A DNA stretch of 64,000 nucleotides from Coffea arabica. Taxonomy: Eukaryota; Streptophyta; Magnoliopsida; Gentianales; Rubiaceae. The stretch covers positions 24,756,001 through 24,820,000 of the forward strand of contig NC_092312.1 of NCBI RefSeq assembly GCF_036785885.1. Direction: 5' to 3'. The notes under the pieces were generated by a model. The model worked only from the letters and a program-made list of their open reading frames with translations, had not been told where the DNA came from and did not search any database. The translations under genes and the position numbers were made by a program. This document shows, piece by piece, positions 3,001 to 26,710 of this stretch (position 1 is the stretch's first letter; every line of letters begins with the position of its first letter).

Positions 3001-4036
3001 ATGAACCAGTCATATGATTGGTGGCTCCTAAGTCGATAAACCAAGTAGATGAAGCTGGCTTACCTTGACCTTGAAGACCAAGGGCAGAAAATGCAGTAAG
3101 AATCATCTGCTGGACCATTTCTGGGGTCATAACAGTCTGGCTGGTTGTAGATGTAGGACCAATAACAGGAGCATCTGGAACAGTAGCTTGAAAAGCTTGG
3201 GCTCGCCTGTTTTCCGGACGTGTAGGACATTCCTTGAGAATATGTCCACTTTGCTTACAGTAATTGCAGAATTTCTTACCACAATTGCGAGCAATATGGC
3301 CAAACTCCTTGCAGCTGTAGCACTGCATTTGTCCCTTTCCTCTATTCCTTCCTTGTGCAGCATAAGCAACATTGACAACCTCTGATGTCCCACCAGCTGC
3401 ACTTAGAATTGACTGTGTAGCCAATCTTTGTTCTTCCCGTAACAATTCACCAACACACACATCCAAAGAAGGAACTGGATTTCGATTCAGCAATCCACCC
3501 CGAGCAGTCTCAAATTCTGGCCTCAGTTTCATCAAAAACTGATCACGCATGCTAACTTGATGAACTTTTTGAAAGCTTGCTAAGGCCTCCTTAGGTATCT
3601 CAGAGTAGATGATATCAGAATATTCACCCCACAGATTTAGAAATTCAAAATAATATTGCTCAATAGAGAGATTACCTTGACTGAACTTACTGATATCAAG
3701 TTCAAGCTGAAATCGTCTTGCAGTGTTGTGTTGATGATATATGCGTTTCAGAAAATTCCATATCTCCTTTGCAGTATTAAATGAACGTAAGCTGTTCACC
3801 ATATGAGGTTCAATGGATGCTAAAATCCATGAAATAATTCGTGAATCATTTGTCTCCCATTGACTTATTTCTTTCTCAGTTCCAGAAGTAGTAGAAGACC
3901 CATCAATGTGACCCCAAAGCTCCTTCCCTTTCAGAAACATTCTAAACTGAAATTCCCATGTTGTATAATTCTTCCCTGTAAGTCTGATACCCAAAGTCTC
4001 TGCAGATTGTCTTCCAAAAGAATTCTCAGCAGCCAT
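11..4036 (-). pseudogene. Copia gag-pol polyprotein, interrupted and with damaged active sites
   Basis: One frame runs from an ATG at 4036 to a stop at 11-13, broken by a single in-frame TAA at 767-769 between reverse transcriptase and RNase H. Domains in order: copia-type Gag with two CCHC zinc knuckles (about 3240-3325), aspartic protease near 3030, zinc-binding integrase head (HRRLGH and CxxC), integrase core, reverse transcriptase with the YVDD box, then RNase H with the STESEY and ADxFTK motifs. Two further lesions are visible: the protease active site reads DLG (codons 3026-3034) where the family has DSG or DTG, and the first aspartate of the integrase D-D-E triad is glycine (codon 2462-2464). 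The other two triad positions (SDNGREY and GVAERKN) are present. The rest of the frame is open, so decay is recent or selection against the remainder is weak. Confidence 0.93.
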
Positions 4037-4175
4037 TCTTAACAAAACTCAAATGCAAATCCGAAATCACAGATTGATAAACTAAGAAATATCAAAATCA
4101 GAATGTTGAATAGAAATCAACCCAAAAAGCTATAGAAAAAAAAACACTCAAAATATCTTATAGATTCAAAAGGTA

Positions 4176-8465: not shown

Positions 8466-8657
8466 AGTGCCAGTAGGGGTGGGCAAAATTATTCGCTAAC
8501 CCGAAAATCCGTCATATCCGATCCGATCCGATCCGAAAATTAGGATATCCGATTTTTATTATTTGATCGGGTCAAAAGAGGGTCGGGTATCCGCTAAGAT
8601 GCGGGGCGGGTTAGGGTCACATAATTAAAAACCCGCGGATACCCGATCCGCCCCGCA

Positions 8658-8688
<31 letters not shown>

Positions 8689-9227
8689 TATTTTTATTTT
8701 TATTTTTATACACACACTATAAAATAATAAGTTAGAACTAAATAAGTAATTTTATTGAATAAATTGCATTACAAAATATGAGAGACTATAGTTTATTTAC
8801 AAGATTCATTTGTAAAGGCCATGATCTTATATTTTATAGAAAAAAGTTTAATTAATGTGGAATATATATATTAAAAATTGTGCTACTCATTTCAAATTTT
8901 TATTGATTTTGAATTCTTTTAATTTTTTTCCTTTATCTTATATTCTCTTCATATGCTTGTTTCTTGGTGGGAAACCTTTTTTTAGAAAAAAAATTATTAA
9001 ATCTTAGATGAATGTGTAAAATATAAAATTAAATTGATATAAATAATTTTTTTAAAAAAATTAAATGATAAACGGGACGGGACGGGTACCGGCTGATCCG
9101 ACCCGGGTACCCGCTGATATTCGGGGCGAGTAAGGGTCAGAAAATGGCTGATCCGCAAGGTGCGGATCGGGTCAGCCAAATGGTGAATGGGGCGGGTACC
9201 CGACCCGCGCCCACCCCTAAGTGCCAG
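8466..9227. mobile_element. Non-autonomous hAT-type element, 8-bp target duplication
   Basis: The element (8474-9219, 746 bp) starts TAGGGGTGGGC and ends GCCCACCCCTA, and is flanked by a perfect 8-bp repeat AGTGCCAG (8466-8473 and 9220-9227). Short terminal repeats with 8-bp duplications are the hAT signature. The subterminal regions are packed with GATCCG and CGGGTACCCG repeats, probable transposase-binding sites, around an AT-rich core that holds an (AT)n tract. There is no transposase. It sits exactly at the junction between the two copies of the tandem duplication. Confidence 0.9.
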
Positions 9228-13789: not shown

Positions 13790-14856
13790 ATACCCTAAGG
13801 GATAATTTCAGAAACCTCCCCTGAGGTTTCTGACACTTGCACTGACACCCCTTGAGATTTTAAACATTTCACCACCCTTACTTTTGAGATTTTTGTAATA
13901 ATTTAGTCCAAATAGGATTAAAATATTATTGCCACGAGTGAGATGAGATTTTTATTTTATGAATGCCCTTTTGGTCCCTGTATTAGTAGAAGATTTGCAC
14001 AAGTAGTGATAATAAAAAAAAGTCCATGTTTGATCCATTAAAATTTTAAACCGTACACAACAAACTTTAATACAAACTAGAAATCATAGCTACCAACTCA
14101 ATAATGAAATACAACTTTTACTTAACATAAGATTCATAACAACACACCAATGTTTACTTCAACATTTAATAACTTTCTATTATCCCTTCCTCACTATACA
14201 AATTTACACATAACAGCAGGATATATGACGTACAGGAATTCAGTTTTACTATCAACTCAAAAATCTACTGATCAAGAAAATATTTACTAAATAACATACT
14301 AGTTTTCTTGAAACTGATTCAACAGAACATTTGTTGTAGGAGGTTGAGATGAAAAGGAAATTCGTACCTTGATTTCTGCTTTTAATCACATTCAGTTCCA
14401 ACAAATGAACAATATCTTCACTTGGTCTCCATTTTCTTCTTCTTTCTCCTTTGTTTTTTTCCTTCTCTATTTCTTGCCTACTAGTTATATTGCTACAATA
14501 TTAGAAACTTGTTCAAACATCCTTGTCAAATCATACCAGTCACAAAAATGGTGCCAAATTCTTCCTCAATTGCCGACTTTCTGTAATGGACTTTTAATCG
14601 GGTTAATTAGACATTAGATTCTATTATTCTAGTTAAATGTAATTTAACTAATTCAGATGCATTTGTTTCCCAAATTTACGTTAGTCATTAGCCCCAACTT
14701 CATAGGATCAAGTGGTAATTTCAGTTATCATGATGTAAGCGAAAGGGCCCCAAATCTCTGCCAAAGGAGGTGAGTGAAATTTTTAAAACCTTAAGGGGTA
14801 TCAGTGCAAGTGGTAAAAACCTGAGAGGAGGTTTGTGAAATTATCCCAAACCCTAA
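13790..14856. mobile_element. Mutator-type MITE in the dyskerin promoter
   Basis: The element (13799-14847, 1049 bp) begins GGGATAATTTCAGAAACCTC and its other end is the inverse (GGGATAATTTCACAAACCTC), followed by further matching TTGCACTGACACCCCTT segments. The flanking 9-bp repeats are ATACCCTAA (13790-13798) and AAACCCTAA (14848-14856), one mismatch, fitting a Mutator-type target. The left copy of the duplication (CCAAAAACCCTAAAC, about 8214-8228) is the empty site. There is no coding capacity; the frame open through its right end uses GTG and is not a plant start. Confidence 0.82.
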
Positions 14857-14868
14857 ACCCTAAACCCC
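14848..14868 (+). promoter_or_regulatory. Telo-box cluster upstream of dyskerin
   Basis: Tandem AAACCCTAA units lie about 120-140 bases before the dyskerin ATG. The telo-box is an established element near the transcription start of plant ribosomal-protein and ribosome-biogenesis genes, which fits this gene. The first unit doubles as the target duplication of the adjoining MITE. The MITE itself ends with a GGGCCCC-containing stretch (about 14744), which could partly replace the displaced upstream elements. Confidence 0.6.
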
Positions 14869-14987
14869 AGCCTTCTTCTACCCTCCCATTTCTAGCCATA
14901 GCCTCCCCGTCACCTGTTTACTCACGTAGAAAAACTAACCCTAAACCAAAATTTCCACTCTTCTTCACTCGCTCTTTCTCCCAAACC

Positions 14988-16784
14988 ATGACAGAAATCG
15001 AGCTCTCCCGCTCAGACAAGAAAAAGAAGAAGAACAAACACTCCAAAACCGAACAAGAACCCGAAGAGATCCAGAAAACCCAACAACCTGACGAAAATGC
15101 CGACGATTTCTCAATCAAACCCCAGAAATTCACCCCAACAATCGACACCTCCGAGTGGCCAATCCTCTTGAAGAACTACGACCGCCTCAACATCCGAACT
15201 GGCCATTACACCCCCATTTCCTCCGGTTTCTCGCCGCTGAAACGCCCCCTGCTGGAGTATATCCGCTACGGAATCTTGAATCTTGACAAACCGGCGAACC
15301 CTTCCTCCCATGAGGTCGTGGCGTGGATCAAGCGGATTCTCCGGGTCGAGAAAACTGGTCATTCGGGTACTCTGGATCCCAAAGTTACTGGTAATTTGAT
15401 TGTTTGTATTGACCGGGCCACCCGGCTGGTTAAATCCCAGCAGGGTGCCGGGAAAGAGTATGTTTGTATTGCTAGATTGCATTCTGCAGTGCCCGATGCT
15501 GCCAAGGTGGGAAGGGCACTGGAGACTTTAACTGGGGCTGTTTTTCAACGGCCCCCTTTAATTTCTGCTGTTAAGAGGCAGCTCAGGATAAGGACTATTT
15601 ATGAAAGTAAGTTATTGGAGTATGATGCTAGTAGACATTTGGTTGTTTTCTGGATTTCGTGCGAGGCGGGGACTTACGTGAGGACCTTGTGTGTTCACTT
15701 GGGGCTGTTGTTGGGTGTGGGTGGGCATATGCAGGAGTTGAGGAGGGTGCGGTCGGGGATTTTAGGGGAGAAGGATAATATGGTGACTATGCATGATGTG
15801 ATGGATGCTCAATGGGTTTATGATAACTATAGGGATGAAAGCTATTTGAGGAGGGTGATTATGCCGTTGGAGGTTGTTTTGACTAGTTACAAGAGGCTTG
15901 TGGTGAAGGATTCCGCTGTTAATGCAATTTGTTATGGTGCCAAATTGATGATTCCGGGGTTGTTGAGGTTTGAGAATGATATTGAGGTTGGGGAGGAGGT
16001 GGTTTTGATGACTACGAAAGGGGAGGCAATTGCGTTGGGGATTGCTGAGATGACTACTGCAGTTATGGCTACTTGTGATCATGGGGTGGTTGCGAAGATT
16101 AAGAGGGTTGTGATGGATAGGGATACCTATCCCAGGAAATGGGGGTTGGGGCCGAGGGCTTCAATGAAGAAAAAGTTGATTGCTGAAGGGAAGTTGGATA
16201 AGCATGGAAAACCGACTGAAAATACTCCTGCTGAGTGGTTGAGGAACGTGGTTCTGCCTCCAGGAGGGGATTCTATCGTTGCTGGCCTTGCTGCTGTTGC
16301 TTCTGCTGAGCAGCCAGGTGCATTGAATGCTGAGACTGCTGTGGTTGAGGTTGAAAAGAAAAAGAAAAAGAAACATAAGGAGAAGGAAGGTGCTGATGGA
16401 GGGGATGATCGCAAACGCAAACATCATGAGGTTGATGATAGCCCTGCCCCTGATGCTGCCAAGAAGATGAAAGTTGAGGGAGCTGAGGAAGTTGAGGAAA
16501 AAGAGAAGAAGAAGAAAAAGAAAAAGGATGATGATGATGTTGTATCTGCTGATGGAGAGAAATCAAAGGAAAAGAAGAAAAAGAAAGACAAACAGAAGGA
16601 GGATGCTGCATCATCAGATGAGGACAAGTCTGAGAAGAAGAAAAAGAAGAAGAAGCACAAAGATGCAGAGAATGGTGATTCTGTTTTGCCTGTGGCTAAT
16701 GCAGGAAATGATGACGATACAGAAAAGAGCGAGAAGAAAAAGGAAAAGAAGAAAAAGAAGAATAAGGATGCAGAGCAGGCCTAG
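14988..16784 (+). CDS. NAP57: Dyskerin / CBF5 / NAP57, H/ACA RNP pseudouridine synthase
   Basis: A single-exon gene of 598 codons. Dyskerin is the catalytic subunit of H/ACA snoRNPs; it converts uridine to pseudouridine in rRNA and snRNA in the nucleolus and Cajal bodies and takes part in telomerase RNP assembly. Visible parts: DKCLD-type N-terminal region ([20 protein letters not shown]), TruB catalytic domain with HSGTLDPK (catalytic Asp about residue 130), [12 protein letters not shown], and a PUA domain (about 290-370) followed by [17 protein letters not shown]. From about residue 448 to the end it is a K/E/D-rich tail with many KKKKK clusters, a nucleolar-localisation type tail. The ATG at 14988 gives the family N-terminus; the frame is open upstream to 14835 but that begins with GTG inside a MITE. 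The gene appears intact. Telo-boxes lie upstream and a 71-bp tandem duplication covers the stop codon. Confidence 0.97.
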
Positions 16785-17317: not shown

Positions 17318-17515
17318 GTTTATGCTAGGGATGGCGGGCAACCGTCCTGCAGGGGTAGAAATGGGGTCCTGCAGGGGTAGAAATGGGCCGGGGCGGGGAC
17401 GGGGACGGGGGCGGGGGCAAAATATTTACCCCCGCCTTAAAACGGGGCGGGGGATGGGGCAACATACACCCGCCCCATCGCCCGCCCCGTCCCCCGCATA
17501 AAAAAAAATAAATAT

Positions 17516-17566
<51 letters not shown>

Positions 17567-18235
17567 CAAAAGTAACAATACCCCTTATTATCCCCCTCAG
17601 TTCCTCCTTCGTTCCCTCCTTCACAGCCACCGCCGTCGCCTTCCATTCCCCTCAGTTCTAATCAATACTCAATTAATCGCAGGCGCAAAGGAGAGATGTG
17701 AACTGGAAGGACGCGTGATTACATTACTTAAGGGCATAAAAAAAGTCAGGTGTGCCCATTTCTTTTTGGTGCATTTGAAGTAAGTCGTCTACTATGGCTT
17801 AACTTGTTGTAACAGCATTGCTGGCAATGTCATTGTTTTTATTGATGAGGTCCACACACTTATTGGTTCTGGGATAGTAGGACGAGGCAATAAGGGATCT
17901 GGTCTTGACATTGCCAATTTATTGAAGCCATCACTTGGACGGAGTGAGTTATAGGTAATATTTCTTCCTTGTTACATGCTTTAGTGTGCATTATGTTACT
18001 GGATACTCATTGGTATCCGGACAAGAAATCATGTTACACTGGTATGATCATGGATATTGTAAGCTCATGTTTCTAATCTTAGCTTGGAATTAGTAGCCGA
18101 AAGTTTGTAATCTTTCCTCGCGGGGGACCGCGGGGAAAACGGGGCAGGGGAGGGACGGGGGAAGTTATTTGACAACGGGGCAGGCGAAGGATCCTCCGCC
18201 CCACCACCCGCCCCATTGCCGCCCCTAGTTTATGC
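17318..18235. mobile_element. Gene-capturing non-autonomous hAT-type element
   Basis: The element (17326-18227, 902 bp) starts TAGGGATGGCGGGC, ends GCCGCCCCTA and is flanked by a perfect 8-bp repeat GTTTATGC (17318-17325, 18228-18235). The subterminal parts are G/C-rich repeats (GGGGCGGGG and its complement). A direct repeat GTCCTGCAGGGGTAGAAATGGG occurs near the left end. The interior carries an (AT)n tract (about 17523-17570) and a genomic piece of ClpD with two exons and the intron between them. There is no transposase. Confidence 0.93.
17679..17954 (+). pseudogene. CLPD: Captured ClpD (ERD1) exon pair inside the hAT-type element
   Basis: Exon 1 (about 17683-17749) follows an AATTAATCGCAG acceptor and reads GAKERCELEGRVITLLKGIKK, the region before Walker B of the first AAA+ domain of Hsp100/Clp chaperones. 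A 66-bp GT-AG intron (17750-17815) follows. Exon 2 (17816-17954) reads [17 protein letters not shown], the Walker B segment, then [20 protein letters not shown], which resembles plastid ClpD more than ClpC or ClpB. The last codon before the donor GTAATA is a TAG. The start, ATP-binding loop and everything downstream are missing. The fragment was copied as genomic DNA, since intron and splice sites are kept. The parent gene is not in the window. Confidence 0.88.
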
Positions 18236-19560
18236 TTTGATATGCCTTTTGAGAGAGCAGGTTTGTACAATTAGTTGTTTCATGTAGCAAATCTCGAATG
18301 ATGTTTGAATATCCGTTTTGAGGCAAAATCTCACATTGATTTTTTCAAAGCTTGGACTATACATTCTTGGATTAGGTTGGTTAACGGATCGATTATACGC
18401 ATCTGGACTAATTTGATATGCTGCGTACTTGATTGTCATTAGTTATTGTCTTTTTAGCATCTTTCTTGGATTTAGACATGCACATTCAAGCCATATATAT
18501 GTATACAGCAATTTTCAAATGGGAATGATCCTTGTGATATTGTTGAGAGAATAAGCTTGTCTGATCATATTCTGTCTTGGAAATACTGTCTGTGACTTGA
18601 GTTCTAAACTTGTTTGATTGGTGAAAAGGGTTCTTCTGCAAATGCTTTTTTTTAACATAATTGCTATCTGTTAAAGACAATTTCTTTGAAGTTATTGTCA
18701 TTACTTCATACTAGCATGAGGTGATTATGTCATCTTTAATACTTATTGCAGGATATGTGAAGCCTCTCAAGCAATCTGCATTTCTCAATTTCTTCTTCTT
18801 TGTTATTGCCTTGAAAGAATAGTTGAACTTGTTTTTCTTTTCAGGTCCAATCGATTTTTCATTCTGTAATTTCTTTTTCTTTCTTTCGGTAGGCCATTTG
18901 GTGTTCTCAGAAAAAGGTGATTGTCGATGCAAATACTTTCAGGCCTCAGACTCCGAATATCTTACCGAACCTCTTGGGCTCATTACTTGGGCCCACCCAT
19001 TGAGGAATAATCAATTTTTGGTTTCTGATTTCTTGAAGGGCCCAAACAGAATAAAGTACGTCTTTTTAAGAAGGAAACGAGGAAAGCCAAAAAAAAAAAA
19101 AAAAAAAAAAAAAATTATTAATCTCGTCAAGTGACAATTCTTTTTATTTTACATGTGAGTTGAATTAGTGAAATCCACATGACAGTGTCTCATTTAGGTG
19201 ACCGAATTGGGATTGAAAACTTCCGCAAGTGAGGATTTGAAGCCGGATTGGAAGGGTAGGGGATTTTGGGGGGTGGGGAGGAGACAATTTTCATCTTGTA
19301 ATCAATAGAGTTGATTAGGTTACCTGTAATCAAGTTAAGAAAGGTGAAGTTTTTTTTCTCCCTATAAAACGACATCTATATTTAATTTAGATACATCTCA
19401 TACTTTTCTTAAAAGTAATTATCTCAAAATTCTTACATAGAGGACAGAATTTAATATATTTAAATAAGGAAAATGGAGTAAAGGTGTGAACTTTGTAAAG
19501 TTAAAGGTGTCAATTTGAAGAATTTTATAAAATTATGGGGAGAGAAAGGAATAAGAGTGA

Positions 19561-19701
19561 ATTTTATATACACTGTCAGTGTATATATTATCACAGTTAG
19601 ATGGATGACACAGAAACAAATTTTGAATTTCAAATTTAAATTTTACACATATGTCATATATCTAATGGTGATAGTGTATACACTAACAGTGTATATAAAA
19701 T
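19561..19701. mobile_element. Small palindromic MITE
   Basis: The ends are ATTTTATATACACTGTCAGT and its inverse (rc of the right end reads ATTTTATATACACTGTTAGT). The body is AT-rich. A diverged relative with the same TACACTGACAGTGTATATATTATCAC core lies at 42494-42623. No target duplication beyond A/T could be fixed. Confidence 0.6.
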
Positions 19702-20936: not shown

Positions 20937-21605
20937 TCTCATTGCTTAAAAATAAATAAATAAATAACAAGGCTTTTTAGACAAATTGATATATAACAAA
21001 ATATTGCATGATAATCAGATATTAAGAATACAAAAAAGGCAAAGTAGTGAAAAAAAAAAAAAGAAGAGAAACTCCAAATTACCATTAAATCAATTGGGGA
21101 GAAGAGAAAGGGGGAAAGAAACGAAAAGAAAAGGAAGGATTCACAGAATGGCATGACTGACTTAATCATAGTGAGTTAATTATGTACAGAACATATTATA
21201 AAATTGCTCTGCATTGCCAGTTCATCTTGTGAACAAATAGGGAAATTTGACAGTAAATTTGCTCTCAAATGGTCGTTGTTGAATTGATAAGAAACCTAAA
21301 CTGGTCCTTCATTTATAATTGAACCAAGAAGGAAAAGTTAGGCACTGAAGAAAGAAGAGATGCATGCCAACATTAAAGGCAAGTAGAAGATGAGAATTTT
21401 CACAGGTTGAATGTCTCCATTTTATAGATACATTCATTAACTAACTTCATTACCAATTCATTTTCCTTTTACCAAAAAAGAAAGAAATTTAAACAGTCGT
21501 CAAGAATTGTTGACTCTGCATCCCCTCTATATGTACTTTTCATTTTGTTAACTTCGCTTCACAAATAGATTTCTCCCTTGACTGATTAATCATAAAAAAA
21601 AAAAA
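20937..21605. other. Intergenic, upstream of the protease cluster
   Basis: AT-rich DNA. TCTATATGTACTTT near 21527 could be a remnant TATA region for the protease pseudogene at 21606. Nothing else recognised. Confidence 0.4.
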
Positions 21606-22866
21606 ATGACTAGTAATTTCTCCATTGTTTTGCTGGCCATAGTGCTTATTGTTTCCAGCAATTCATCCCTTCTCACAGAAGCTAAAAATGGTGGTGTTAC
21701 ATTTGATCTCATTCGCGGTGATTCACCCTTGTACAATCATCCCCTTTTGGATCATTTTCAAAGGTCACAGGTTCTTGCCAATCAGTTTCCATCAACAAAA
21801 TTATTGGGCAGTTCTACTAACTCATCATATCTTGTCAATGTATCATATGGTACACCACCACTTGAATCCAAAAGCCGTTTTTGACATTAGTAGCGACCTT
21901 AGTTGGACCCAGTTATGCCAACCTTGTACTAATTGTCTCCAGCAGAAGTCTTCAACATTTAAGCCTATTCCTTGCAATACAAAAACCTGTCAAGATTCTC
22001 CAGGAGCCAAATGTGCAAAACCTTCAAATTCTTGGGAGTATTAGAGCAGCGTATGCTGATGATGAATCTTACACAATCGGTGAGCTTGCAAGTTGCAACA
22101 GACACTACTATCACCTTGAGTGGAACTGATGATGGTAAAAAAATCGCATCATTTTGTTTTTGGATGTGGACATGACAATGGTGATGAATGTGGCCCAAAG
22201 AGAAAGAGGGGTCTGGCTTGGTTGGATTTGGATCTGGAAAGGTCTCATTGTTTACACGAATGAGTTCTTCAATTCATGGGAAATTTTCGTATTGTTTCAG
22301 GGCAAATACTGGTAAACTCAATCTTGGAGACGAGGTTTCAGTTTCAGGTGCTGGGGTGGTTTCAACACCCCTAATTTTACATCCTCGATCATTACACCTT
22401 GACACTGGATGCAATTAGTGTTGATGAGACGAGGTTGGAGTATCCTAAAAATGGTTCTCTCCCTTCAACCAACCATATATTATGATTGCTTCAAAGCCAG
22501 GCATTTCTCTTTTCCCAACAGATTTCTATCAAGACTTTAATTTGCGTCAGCTGTGGAGACAAAAAAATAAATTCGAAAACCTTTCCTGATCCACTGACAC
22601 TCTTTACTTTGTGCTGCCCTTCTTTAGAAGGTCTTAGAATCCCCAACATCACCTTACACTTCAGGGATGCAGACTTGGAGTTAAAGACATGGAACCCTTT
22701 GTGGTTACCATTAGTTATAGCTATGCCTCTTTTTTGTCTAGCTTTTCGCCCTCATAATGAAGTGAACGTACTAGGCAATGTGCAACAAATTGGTTTTTGG
22801 GTAGGACATGACGTTGAAAACAGGAAGATTGTTTCCCATAAGCCTGCGGATTGTGAGGCTGCATGA
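21606..22866 (+). pseudogene. CDR1-like aspartic protease, frameshifted pseudogene
   Basis: The frame starts with a signal-peptide-like N-terminus (SIVLLAIVLIVSS) and the family opening (GVTFDLIRGDSPLYNHP...SYGTPP), then breaks near 21868 by a frameshift. In the next frame the first active-site region reads DISSDLSW where the family has DTGSD.xW. Further shifts follow around 22044 and 22130. Later pieces include FGSGKVSLFTRMSSSIHGKFSYCF, the second active-site region MIASKPGISLFPTDFY (ASK instead of DSG, 22488-22496) and the C-terminal ITLHFRDADLELK...GNVQQIGFWVGHD. Both catalytic aspartate motifs are therefore degenerate, besides the frameshifts. CDR1-type enzymes are secreted, intronless nepenthesin-like proteases linked to defence signalling. 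A foldback MITE begins 30 bases after its stop. Confidence 0.9.
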
Positions 22867-22895
22867 CTTGTTCGACGTGGAAATCAATAATCTTA

Positions 22896-23375
22896 GGGTT
22901 AATTACATTTACCTCCCCTGAGGTTTGACCATATTACCAATCAATCCCTGTAATTTGTCCAAATAACGGTCTCACCCTTTGAATGATCAAACATTTAACA
23001 AAAACCCCCTTAATGCCGAAAATGCCCTTATTGAGGCCATGTTGCATTAAAAAAAGAACATATTTTTATTTCATTAATCCTGAAGCAATCCAAAAATTTA
23101 GAAAAAAATTTTTGCTTATTATTTTATAAAAACCATATCTTTGCTTCCATAAATAGTTTTGAATCAATAATTATTTTAAATCTTAAAAATGAATATTAAA
23201 AATTAGATAAATTGAAAGAAAAATAAAAAAGAAGCAATTATTTTAAATCCACAAGTATGGTTCGAATTTGTGATTTAAGGCATGTTGCGGAGAGCACAAG
23301 GCATGTTTCCCTCGATTTGAATCATACTTCAGGAATTAAAATAATTTCTTCTTCTTTTTTTTTTTTATTTTTCTT
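22896..23375. mobile_element. Truncated Mutator-type foldback MITE
   Basis: This matches the left arm, loop and beginning of the right arm of the element at 6328-7121 (GGGTTAATTACATTTACCTC start, same ATGGTTCGAATTTGTG...CATGTTGCGGAGA loop). The right arm stops abruptly at about 23375, where protease coding sequence begins. The missing arm and the missing N-terminal two thirds of the next protease gene appear to have gone in one deletion. Confidence 0.85.
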
Positions 23376-23583
23376 GGATAGACTCGGGAACAACATACAC
23401 GCTTCTTCCAACACAACTCTATTTCAGAGAACCTCACCTACTTCAGTCTGCCTGGGATTTTTCCCCAGCGACAGTGTTGCCTTGTTTGGCAACTTGGCAC
23501 AGGCCAACTTTTGGGTGGAATACGACTTGAAAAACAAAATTCTTTCATTTCAACGTGCTGATTGCATGTTGCCGTTGGATTAA
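23376..23583 (+). pseudogene. C-terminal fragment of a second CDR1-like aspartic protease
   Basis: It begins inside the second catalytic motif (DSGTTYTLLPTQLYF), which is intact here, then jumps after an internal deletion of perhaps 70 residues and a frame change to FQRTSPTSVCLGFFPSDS...LFGNLAQANFWVEYDLKNKILSFQRADC, the normal C-terminus. It has no start, signal peptide or first catalytic motif. It is a remnant of a further tandem copy lying between the pseudogene at 21606 and the intact gene at 25433. Confidence 0.88.
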
Positions 23584-25432
23584 AAAAAAAAAAAAAACGT
23601 GCTGATTGCGCTAGTCAATGATGCTTTCAGTAGTTAATATAGAGATGGTTGTATTAGTTTTTTTTTTTTTTTTTTTGTTAAAAACATGTTTATTTAACTA
23701 GAAGTAATGAATAATTTCTAACAACGATCCTTGAATTATACCTCGATTCTCAATTTGATCTCTAAAGTCCTTTCTTTGATCTAATTTCATGATTTTTTTG
23801 GGTTATTCTTTAATGTTTTTTGCTGCTTACTTGAGTAGTATTATATTAGTTTTGGGTATTGCATTAGTAATTGTCTTTCAAGTGGGACGATTTTTATAGT
23901 ATGGGGACCAAAGTGTCCCAATTTATAATTTAGGGACCAAATTTAGAATTTGAGGTACTATTAAGGGACGCAAAATGAATTATTCCTTCCCCCTATCTAC
24001 TCAGTGTTTTAGGTAATACATTTTGCAATCTTCAAAATCCCACGTGGTACAGATAAGAAAAGACTGAAAGAGTTTTAGTATGTTTGTGAAGTTACAATGT
24101 CAGCTATACTACCAATAAGTGTAAAAAAGAAAAGAATTAAAAATACAATTAAAAGGTAAGTATTATTACTTAGGATTAATCCATATTTGTTTGAGACCAA
24201 ATGGGACATGTACGGAAGGGAGAAACTGAAACTTTCACGCACTGCTACATGGCAATAATTTAAGAGGGACATCAAGTGTTAATTTTTTTTAGATTAGAAA
24301 AATATGTAGTTAATTCAAGAAAATGTCGCAATTTAGGGGTGCAATAAATGTAAATGTGTGTATTCACACGCTAATTTAAGTTTACGTCATTGTCCTAATT
24401 GTAGATCAAACATACACTAGAAATAACGGATATGTAATTAACAATAGATACAATATATCTGAATCATTTTGAATAGTTATGAAAAATACAATAAATTTTC
24501 AAATTGTCTTTTGGTTCATGTAGCAGCTTGACTTGGCACACATTTAAGGACATCTCTATGTTTAATGAGGATGCGCTTTTTCGTATAATGAAGCATCCGA
24601 TGTTTTAGACTAGGCTAGAGTCGGCTTCCCCTTAGACTAGGTTAGAATAGATTATACAAATGTTATCGTTGCGATAAAAAAAAAGTTACCCGATTCTTGT
24701 GCTTATATCTTATGCACTTTTATCTGCAATGTTCTTCATCCTTTCCTGATTATTTCATCTTTTACAAATTCCAGAACAGAGATTAGATAGAGACCATTCA
24801 TATGATTCTAAGTTTGTCTGCTACTACCCACTTGGGCTTAACAGTTTTCTGCTAGAATATTTTGAATTGATACACGAGAAGTCCTTGCAATTCCTGTAGT
24901 GCATATAATATTTCTTGCACCTTGGGCTAAATTGTTCCCAAGACTAGTCCAGGCTACAAGAAGTTGATGAAACAAATAGAATAACCTGTATGTTCCCTGC
25001 CACTCTCTTCCTAAACACGTTGAGCATGGAGCTGCCAAGCCTGGCACAGAAAAAACTGATCTGTTCTTGATTGGCAGAGTACTTCGACATTTGTAAAGGG
25101 CGAATTAACTACACAGTGCAGATCCAAGAATGAACAAAAAATTGTGGTCTAGGCGATTGGGTTCCCAGTCGTGCAACGGACAACTGAAGGATAATTTTAG
25201 TTCCAAAACTCATGCCAAGACAGGATAGTAGCTCAATTTGTCTGTTTTTGGAAGATTGGTAAACTCATGCCAAGACAGGATACATTTTGTTAGGACAATG
25301 CACGCTCTTTGCAACAAAAGCTAAACTAGTTAAAAGTATGTAATCGCTAATATAAAATGTCAAGATGTCCTCTTAGCTTCTCTGAGTATAGAGCTTCTTC
25401 TTTAAGAAAAATCACACCTGAGTAGTTTCAAT
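23584..25432. other. Spacer between protease copies, no gene seen
   Basis: AT-rich DNA with poly-A and poly-T runs near 23583-23680. A short direct repeat AAACTCATGCCAAGACAGGATA occurs at about 25206 and 25260. A 69-codon minus-strand frame at 24838-25047 shows no family features. The last 60 bases are the likely 5' UTR of the next gene. Confidence 0.4.
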
Positions 25433-26710
25433 ATGAGATCCCCCCACATTATCTCGACTGTGTTAGTGGTAGTAACAACACTTATTGTATCTTGTTCTAC
25501 ATCCGTGTTTGTCCAAGCCAACAATTATGGTGGCTTTACCGCCGATCTCATCCACCGAGATGCACCGAAATCACCCTTCTATGATCCTCTCTTAACCCCT
25601 TCTCAACGGCTAATGAACACTTTTCGTCGTTCATTAGACCGTGCGAATCAGTTCGCATCAGCAAGTGTAATCGTTAGTGGTGGTGAATATCTGATGAAGA
25701 TATCTTATGGGACGCCACCATTTGAAACACAGGCAGTTGTTAACACTGCTGATGCTTCTACATGGACCCAATGCCTACCTTGCACTCAATGTTCCCAGGA
25801 AAAGTTCCCTCGTTTTGATCCACAAAATTCTTCCACATACGAGTCTGTTTCTTGTCATTCAAGAACATGTGACCAATTTTCAAGTTCCATGTGCACGCAG
25901 GACAGTTCAGCTTGTGCTTTCTTTGTACTTTATGGAGATGATTCTAACGTTTATGGCGAACTTGCAAGAGAAACTATAACTTTGGAAGGATCTGCTGGGG
26001 ATAGGGTGTCTTTCCCTGACTTTATTTTCGGATGTGGACAAGGTGGTGACTTTCCTAAGGAGGGATCTGGCATTGTTGGCCTAGGATTCCAGCACCAATC
26101 ACTGATCTCGCAATTAAATTCCTCGCTAAATGGGAAATTTTCCTATTGTTTTGGTCCATCCAATGATGTCTCCAAGCCTGGAAAAATCGGATTCGGTGAC
26201 AATCCTGAACTCTTGGGAAGAGAAGGGGTGGTCTCAACGCCGCTACATTTTGATTTCACATACAGCCTGAGACTAGAAGCCATTAGTGTTGCAGATACAA
26301 GATTGGAGTATCATTATGATACACCCTCTTCAACATCAGGCAACATTTTCATAGACTCTGGGACACCTTATACTTTTCTTCCACAAGAACTCTACAGTGA
26401 TTTTAAAGCTGCCATACAACGTGAAATTGGGTCACAGAATATAGTGGTCGACCAAGAACATGACTTTACATTGTGTTACTCATCTCTGCTTGACAGTAAT
26501 ATTCCCAATGTCACGTTACATTTTACAGGTGCAGATTTGAAGTTGAACCCAGAAAACATCTTTGATAGGACCTCATCTTCTCCAGTGTGCCTAGGATTTG
26601 CCCCAAATGACATTGGCATACTTGGAAATATAGCACAGGCTAACTCTTGGGTACAATATGACTTGGGAAACAAAATTATCTCCTTTAAGCCAGCTGATTG
26701 CACCAAATGA
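25433..26710 (+). CDS. CDR1-like (nepenthesin-type) aspartic protease homologue lacking the first catalytic Asp
   Basis: An intact, intronless frame of 425 residues, normal for the CDR1 family. Parts in order: signal peptide (about 1-28, ending FVQA), prosegment with LIHRDAPKSPFYDP, first lobe from SYGTPPFE, the nepenthesin-specific cysteine-rich insert (CLPCTQC...CHSRTC...CTQDSSAC), the flap YGDD, GCGQGGDF, FSYCF, then the second lobe with IDSGTPYTFLP (catalytic Asp about residue 308 present) and the C-terminal CLGFAPND...GILGNIAQANSW. The first active-site motif, DTGSD.xW in the family, reads NTADASTW (residue 104 is Asn). All disulfide cysteines remain. Two-lobed aspartic proteases need both aspartates, so this protein is expected to be inactive or very weak. 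It could be a secreted pseudoenzyme or a gene at the start of decay. Confidence 0.93.
   Translation: MRSPHIISTVLVVVTTLIVSCSTSVFVQANNYGGFTADLIHRDAPKSPFYDPLLTPSQRLMNTFRRSLDRANQFASASVIVSGGEYLMKISYGTPPFETQAVVNTADASTWTQCLPCTQCSQEKFPRFDPQNSSTYESVSCHSRTCDQFSSSMCTQDSSACAFFVLYGDDSNVYGELARETITLEGSAGDRVSFPDFIFGCGQGGDFPKEGSGIVGLGFQHQSLISQLNSSLNGKFSYCFGPSNDVSKPGKIGFGDNPELLGREGVVSTPLHFDFTYSLRLEAISVADTRLEYHYDTPSSTSGNIFIDSGTPYTFLPQELYSDFKAAIQREIGSQNIVVDQEHDFTLCYSSLLDSNIPNVTLHFTGADLKLNPENIFDRTSSSPVCLGFAPNDIGILGNIAQANSWVQYDLGNKIISFKPADCTK

Follow-up and report, generated by a model that had tools for sequence, protein, structure and literature searches.

The locus examined here raises the question of how exon and intron sequence resembling ClpD, a chloroplast chaperone gene, came to lie between the ends of a short transposable element of Coffea arabica, and what became of it there. 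The window, i.e., the whole stretch of DNA analyzed, spans 64,000 nucleotides, and the original prediction of a ClpD-carrying hAT element was made from its letters alone. The observation proved real, and the capture reading is supported by the comparisons described below. We consider it very probable (roughly 93%) that the element is a Pack-hAT, namely a derivative of a ca. 4-kb hAT element in which the transposase region was replaced by 431 bp of ClpD, and that one capture was followed by spread mobilized in trans and by decay of the copies as noncoding DNA.

Structure of the element

The element (902 bp, window positions 17326-18227, forward strand) is non-autonomous, of the hAT type, and carries a ClpD fragment (Pack-hAT type). 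Its termini are TAGGGATGGC and TAGGGGCGGC (reverse complement), and the same 8-mer, GTTTATGC, is found at both 17318-17325 and 18228-18235, so that the inverted ends and the perfect 8-bp target duplication had been described correctly from the start. Short terminal inverted repeats of the TAGGG type are typical of the hAT superfamily, and these ends are of that type. The window contains 38 TAGGG/CCCTA pairs spaced 200-3000 bp apart. A perfect 8-bp duplication accompanies just two of them, the present element and another at 8474-9219, and both enclose sequence repeated in the genome; the probability that the ends and duplication arose by chance is therefore negligible. The element at 8474-9219 (746 bp, hAT-like ends, perfect 8-bp duplication AGTGCCAG) has at least 39 further genomic places at 86-94% identity among the best 40 of 1952 candidates.

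Other classes of gene-carrying transposons did not fit. MULEs, and with them Pack-MULEs, have target duplications of 9-11 bp and long inverted repeats, and Helitrons lack a target duplication and have TC/CTRR ends. Both identities were rejected for the window element, given its 8-bp duplication and its short, TAGGG-type ends.

The features are as follows (C8 and C7 are the contigs with the parental genes, loci L009 and L010; L067 is a transposase-bearing relative).

14817-16784, +: neighboring host gene, open frame for a dyskerin/TruB-type pseudouridine synthase (DKCLD, TruB_N, TruB_C_2, PUA)
17318-17325, unstranded: left target-site duplication GTTTATGC, identical to 18228-18235
17326-18227, +: whole element, 902-bp non-autonomous hAT type with ClpD fragment
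17326-17671, +: left hAT arm, with the terminus, a G-rich part, an AT microsatellite, and a stretch known from hAT elements without ClpD
17672-18102, +: captured ClpD segment, 431 bp (411/431 identical to C8, L009; 407/431 to C7, L010)
17672-17749, +: 3' portion of a ClpD exon (parental reading LIAGAKERGELEGRVTTLLKDIKKS), frameshifted in the window copy by an additional base
17750-17823, +: 74-bp ClpD intron; acceptor AG changed to TG in the window copy
17824-17954, +: whole ClpD exon, 131 nt; last codon CAG in the parent, TAG here
17955-18102, +: 148 nt from the start of the following ClpD intron, with its GT donor retained
18103-18227, +: right hAT arm and terminus (element 776-817 and 797-902 align to L067 3921-3962 and 3965-4076)
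18228-18235, unstranded: right target-site duplication GTTTATGC, identical to 17318-17325

The open frame of the dyskerin gene ends ca. 540 bp ahead of the element. On the other side, the window has an aspartyl-protease/TAXi-type open frame at 25406-26710 and what by eye seems to be a broken relative of it at 21582-23583.

Extent of the captured segment

Alignment of 12 elements with both parents showed that ClpD similarity begins at 17672 and ends at 18102, stopping inside the element on both sides, and the predicted ClpD-like coding pieces do lie within it (17672-17954). The left edge falls inside an exon, in the codon run LIAGAKERGELEGRV. Two exons with their intron had been proposed as the captured content. 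The exon and intron DNA of ClpD is indeed there, with only the final 77 nt of the first exon, followed by the whole 131-nt exon (presumably the Walker B region of ClpD) and by 148 nt of the next intron, which the proposal had not included. The intron had also been placed wrongly. It was taken as a GT-AG intron of 66 bp, and in both parents it measures 74 bp, with the acceptor 8 nt farther on; with this length, the parental frame is open throughout the captured exons. The shorter version seemed in frame due to the extra exon base of the window copy, which together with the 8 nt of intron adds up to 9 nt.

Of the claim that retained splice sites indicate capture at the DNA level, the introns and the donors stood, and the acceptor did not, since it reads TG in the window copy, which also has the additional base in the first exon piece and TAG as last codon of the whole exon. 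The retention of the introns indicates that no RNA intermediate was involved.

Source gene

A parental gene was found in the same genome, as the original prediction had supposed, and it is present twice. Only the middle of the element matches C8:4158189-4158621 and C7:4352587-4353019, with local alignments that run through the intron at 94-95% identity, so that, as in Pack-TYPE transposons, the host-gene DNA exists elsewhere in the genome. At the C8 locus, eleven exon-bearing open frames extend from the N-terminal to the last exon, and all are open in the C7 counterpart, with 94-100% protein identity between the two; judged by these open exon frames, both loci look like complete genes. The first piece of the ClpD locus matches Clp_N and later ones AAA_2 (Pfam), and the piece holding the captured exon had no Pfam match when scanned alone. 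The best relative of solved structure was Arabidopsis AT5g51070 (5gkm, E value of 1.3e-53), which we take to be ClpD/ERD1, well ahead of ClpC1 (5gui, 3.1e-19), and the parent is thus ClpD, a chloroplast chaperone gene.

A degenerate 90-bp relic of the captured exon lies 3' of both ClpD genes (L009 1678-1767 and L010 1668-1757), ca. 3.3 kb from the source segments of the parents.

Copies, target duplications, and empty sites

With the 434-bp captured stretch as query, the genome yielded 16 candidates, all of which were scored: 12 elements, the two parents, and the two 90-bp relics. Copy counts derived from this search are lower bounds. In the alignment, both edges of the captured segment were identical in all 12 ClpD-bearing elements. 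Four differences from both parents are common to the 12 copies and a fifth to 11 of them; all five are located in the second intron part, and they either predate the amplification or lie on the parental line. At the four positions that distinguish the parents, the copies side with C8; the exceptions are a single copy showing a third base and another showing a gap.

The target duplication, 8 bp as in hAT elements, is perfect in 8 of the 12 elements (the window, L011, L013, L014, L017, L019, L020, and L021) and has one mismatch in another two (L012 and L015). Judged by eye, a 1-nt indel shifts it in L016, and L018 has no right end. In a comparison of the 11 copies fetched besides the window element, the flanks were mutually unrelated, except for one 57-bp match between L015 and L016 and for the copies on C21 and C22, whose flanks agree at 96-97% over hundreds of bases. 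Since the latter two share their flanks, the 12 or more elements represent at least 11 sites, a single repeated genomic cluster of the kind expected for Pack-TYPE transposons. The C21 copy (L021) has a deletion through the captured intron, and at its oriented positions 875-960, a short tandem duplication of flank and first element bases has produced a second left end, so that the 8-mer GCATTTAC accompanies both.

Sites without the insertion were found in both cases tested (C4 and C1). The window flanks match C4:25074305-25075375 at 96-98%, and at the empty site (C4:25075234), they meet at one 8-mer, GTAAATGC, which differs from GTTTATGC at two bases, with neither element nor surplus bases; a matching site devoid of the element thus exists on the paired chromosome. 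The C2 copy sits in a dispersed repeat, for which an empty counterpart on C1 (C1:48380788) was found at 89-92% identity, with flank matches overlapping by 6 bases. To the right of the window element, ca. 1.27 kb (18367-19633) is missing at the paired C4 site, where matching breaks off at 18366 and picks up again at 19634; this is either a second insertion in the window or a deletion on C4.

Common edges, common differences, and scattered sites are what one capture and later spread to at least 11 sites would leave, and this is very probably what happened.

Relatives without ClpD and origin of the arms

The pattern of the left arm, allowing up to three mismatches, had 39 matches in the genome, including the ClpD-bearing copies, and none in the backward control. 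Thirteen further left-arm matches were fetched, seven with a perfect 8-bp duplication, one with one mismatch, and five for which the script found no end pair. Among seven relatives devoid of ClpD (L022-L028), the duplication was perfect in four, had one mismatch in two, and was absent in one. Sister elements sharing the termini therefore occur both with and without the ClpD insert.

One relative encodes a transposase. L067, on C1, measures 4,076 bp and is flanked by a perfect duplication, CTTGGATA; between arms matching those of the window element, it has zf-BED, hAT-like RNase-H, and Dimer_Tnp_hAT domains (PF02892, PF14372, and PF05699) in three of the four pieces scanned; its transposase frames lie in pieces. 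On the left side, element positions 65-160, 266-301, 299-321, and 316-346 correspond to L067 29-123, 207-239, 253-275, and 278-308, the three blocks between 266 and 346 only weakly (E values of 1e-4 to 0.01), and on the right side, the arm aligns to the last bases of L067. In the pairwise alignment, no part of the window element matched L067 between ca. 308 and 3921. Since the arms align to the ends of L067, the ClpD piece stands in place of ca. 3.6 kb that include the transposase gene, leaving hAT arms plus ClpD without transposase, i.e., the non-autonomous condition of Pack-TYPE transposons. A G-rich block (element 116-163) matches L067 out of order (4017-4063), presumably owing to the G-rich repeats. 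Elsewhere, 4 of 150 scored transposase-domain matches (from 1658 candidates) are 3-4 kb from other arm matches (C12:15919719, C8:38738462, C9:5183980, and C6:24423120).

We considered 17585-17676, which is partly non-ClpD, as a second captured gene and rejected it because it recurs in elements of the same family that lack ClpD. Copies at C14:15204648, C2:47526315, and C20:4104177 are within a few kilobases of PF05699 matches (C14:15207270, C2:47528930, and C20:4101379, respectively), parts of the stretch align weakly in L067, and we take it as hAT-own sequence.

Two relatives have peculiar interiors. L028 (interior at C6:37358849-37359384) represents a subfamily in which the arms of the family enclose another, AT-rich interior that matches at least about 40 places (best 40 of 88 candidates). 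Four apparent donor places for it were fetched (C5, C4, C20, and C19), and the one on C4 is not a clean donor, given that the left arm of the family is nearby. L025 (C1:53243401-53244569) contains a second element starting with TAGGCTTGTCAACGGG, with duplication CCTGTTAG, that by eye seems to be nested in an element of the same family.

Mechanism of capture and spread

Genomic DNA with introns, fixed breakpoints, and insertion with an 8-bp duplication are the directly observed parts of the mechanism. The element would have arisen as an internal-deletion derivative of a hAT element of roughly 4 kb, its transposase region swapped for 431 bp of genomic ClpD. Uptake of the ClpD DNA probably took place through template switching while the gap in a broken or excised element was being repaired. 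With its ends kept, the product could then have been cut and pasted by the transposase of the family supplied in trans, as the ends, target duplications, and empty sites suggest.

For Pack-TYPE transposons of plants, tandem insertion followed by re-mobilization has been proposed, according to the available part of the source (PMC8903248). No element arm was found in the 10 kb surrounding either ClpD gene (C8 and C7), and this absence of arm sequence near the source genes makes us lean toward gap repair over tandem insertion and re-mobilization. At the capture edges, microhomology as judged by eye does not exceed 1-2 bp, a length that could arise by chance; for animal cases, the portion of the literature at hand reports 1-36 bp, with a median of 2 (PMC8277862).

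Decay and timing

Measured against the majority of the copies, changes affect 68 of 2460 exon and 72 of 2586 intron positions, with 27, 22, and 19 at codon positions 1, 2, and 3, respectively. Against the C8 parent, the introns diverge more (126/2630) than the exons (72/2416; split by the edges of the 66-bp intron), and 59 of the 126 intron differences stem from the five positions common to 11 or 12 copies. Given equal change in exons and introns after amplification and no third-position excess, a coding function of the copies was rejected, and so was a protein-coding chimeric gene with a selected frame, for which the frame of the window copy is also broken. By this pattern, in which no selection is seen after amplification, the copies are decaying fragments without a coding role. 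C>T or G>A accounts for 100 of the 140 changes from the majority, the bias expected of methylated cytosines, which suggests that the copies are methylated and silent.

The tree of the captured segment is star-like, with one well-supported inner branch out of 11 (that of the two parents), and yields no order of transposition. Its resolution is low, as seen in the C21 and C22 copies, which do not group and are not each other's closest relatives. Their divergence amounts to 16 of 325 captured bases (4.9%), close to the mean of 5.2% for all 66 pairs (3.5-7.7%), and to 64 of 668 over the whole aligned element; their flanks differ by 3-4%.

Large contigs of the assembly pair off (C1/C2, C3/C4, C7/C8, C21/C22, and others). 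A methyltransferase exon on C2 matches the xanthosine methyltransferase of coffee (2eg5), departing from it, by eye, at 5 of 121 residues. As far as the available text of the genome report goes, C. arabica is an allotetraploid with a 1,198-Mb HiFi assembly of 22 chromosomes, and the donor species of its subgenomes split 4-6 million years ago (PMC11018527). The contig pairs are most likely the two subgenomes. Of the listed insertions, that of C21/C22 occupies both members of a pair and ten occupy a single member, five of them on odd-numbered contigs (three on C3, and C7 and C9) and five on even-numbered ones (C2, C12, and three on C14). This one-sidedness was seen at the paired site in two of the ten cases and is inferred for the other eight, which rest on the lower-bound copy search. 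The shared C21/C22 site shows that the spread began before the members of the chromosome pair parted, and the expansion of the family seems roughly contemporaneous with the subgenome split, with activity in both lineages.

Possible effects on host genes and other origins

The copies might still act on their source. Transcripts or 24-nt small RNAs derived from them could match ClpD and dampen or methylate it in trans, since each of the 12 elements shares 106-205 exact 21-mers with the 10-kb region surrounding ClpD on C8, with longest exact runs of 52-116 nt, and methylation of the copies is suggested by their surplus of C>T and G>A changes. However, both ClpD genes have open exon frames and nothing points to silencing spreading to them, and we regard such an effect as improbable. 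The same holds, as a quite improbable extension, for the idea that a single hAT capture, spreading exon and intron DNA of ClpD around the subgenome split, left in each subgenome private, probably methylated copies whose small RNAs could adjust ClpD in a subgenome-specific way.

Exon shuffling, in which the fragment would lend exons or splice sites to neighboring genes, here 3' of the dyskerin gene, has in its favor that the first donor GT is kept in all 11 copies having it and the second in 12 of 12, and that a maize Pack-hAT supplies a splice donor to a gene, as described in the accessible part of PMC8903248. It is nevertheless very unlikely, as the window copy starts ca. 540 bp past the end of the dyskerin open frame, has lost its acceptor, and carries a frameshift and a stop, and as 5 of the 11 intron-bearing copies no longer have the acceptor AG (in the remaining copy, on C21, the deletion runs across it).

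Despite the presence of two parental genes, independent captures or a segmental or retro-duplication of ClpD are extremely unlikely in view of the edges and substitutions common to the copies, the unrelated flanks outside the exceptions given above, and the retained introns, and a single Pack-hAT capture with later transposition remains our reading.

Comparison with known systems

Pack-MULEs likewise carry gene fragments between transposon ends; they differ in their MULE ends and longer target duplications, which the window element does not have. A search of the open-licence PubMed Central literature found no ClpD-bearing transposon. When the window was first read, gene capture by short non-autonomous hAT elements was considered much less described than that by Pack-MULEs and Helitrons. 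Elements of the hAT type with gene pieces, some of them multicopy, appear already in the available parts of three reports (PMC8903248, PMC2528002, and PMC8277862). The ClpD-bearing hAT is thus a clear and datable case of known gene shuffling, an event of a kind already known.

In grapevine, Hatvine-6 is a hAT with shared ends and variable interiors that resemble genic introns and exons, and it differs in that its members share transposase coding sequence, which is gone in the coffee element (PMC2528002, as far as the consulted portion goes). Pack-hAT-N8_XT of the western clawed frog is also multicopy, with captured host DNA, and absent from outgroup sites; it is an animal element, with three derived copies named in the part of the source available (PMC8277862). 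A further likeness is with the Pack-hAT elements of maize, already published among Pack-TYPE transposons, which in the accessible text are non-autonomous hAT elements with 8-nt target duplications, gene pieces, and clusters of related copies, in another species and with other genes (PMC8903248). Unlike that account, in its available part, the coffee family has its parent, breakpoints, empty sites, transposase-bearing relative, and paired-chromosome timing worked out. With donor gene, breakpoints, transposase-bearing relative, amplified copies, empty sites, and a paired-chromosome clock within one assembly, it provides an unusually complete natural record of hAT gene capture, in which the models of capture (gap repair versus fusion of neighboring insertions) become checkable in diploid coffee relatives.
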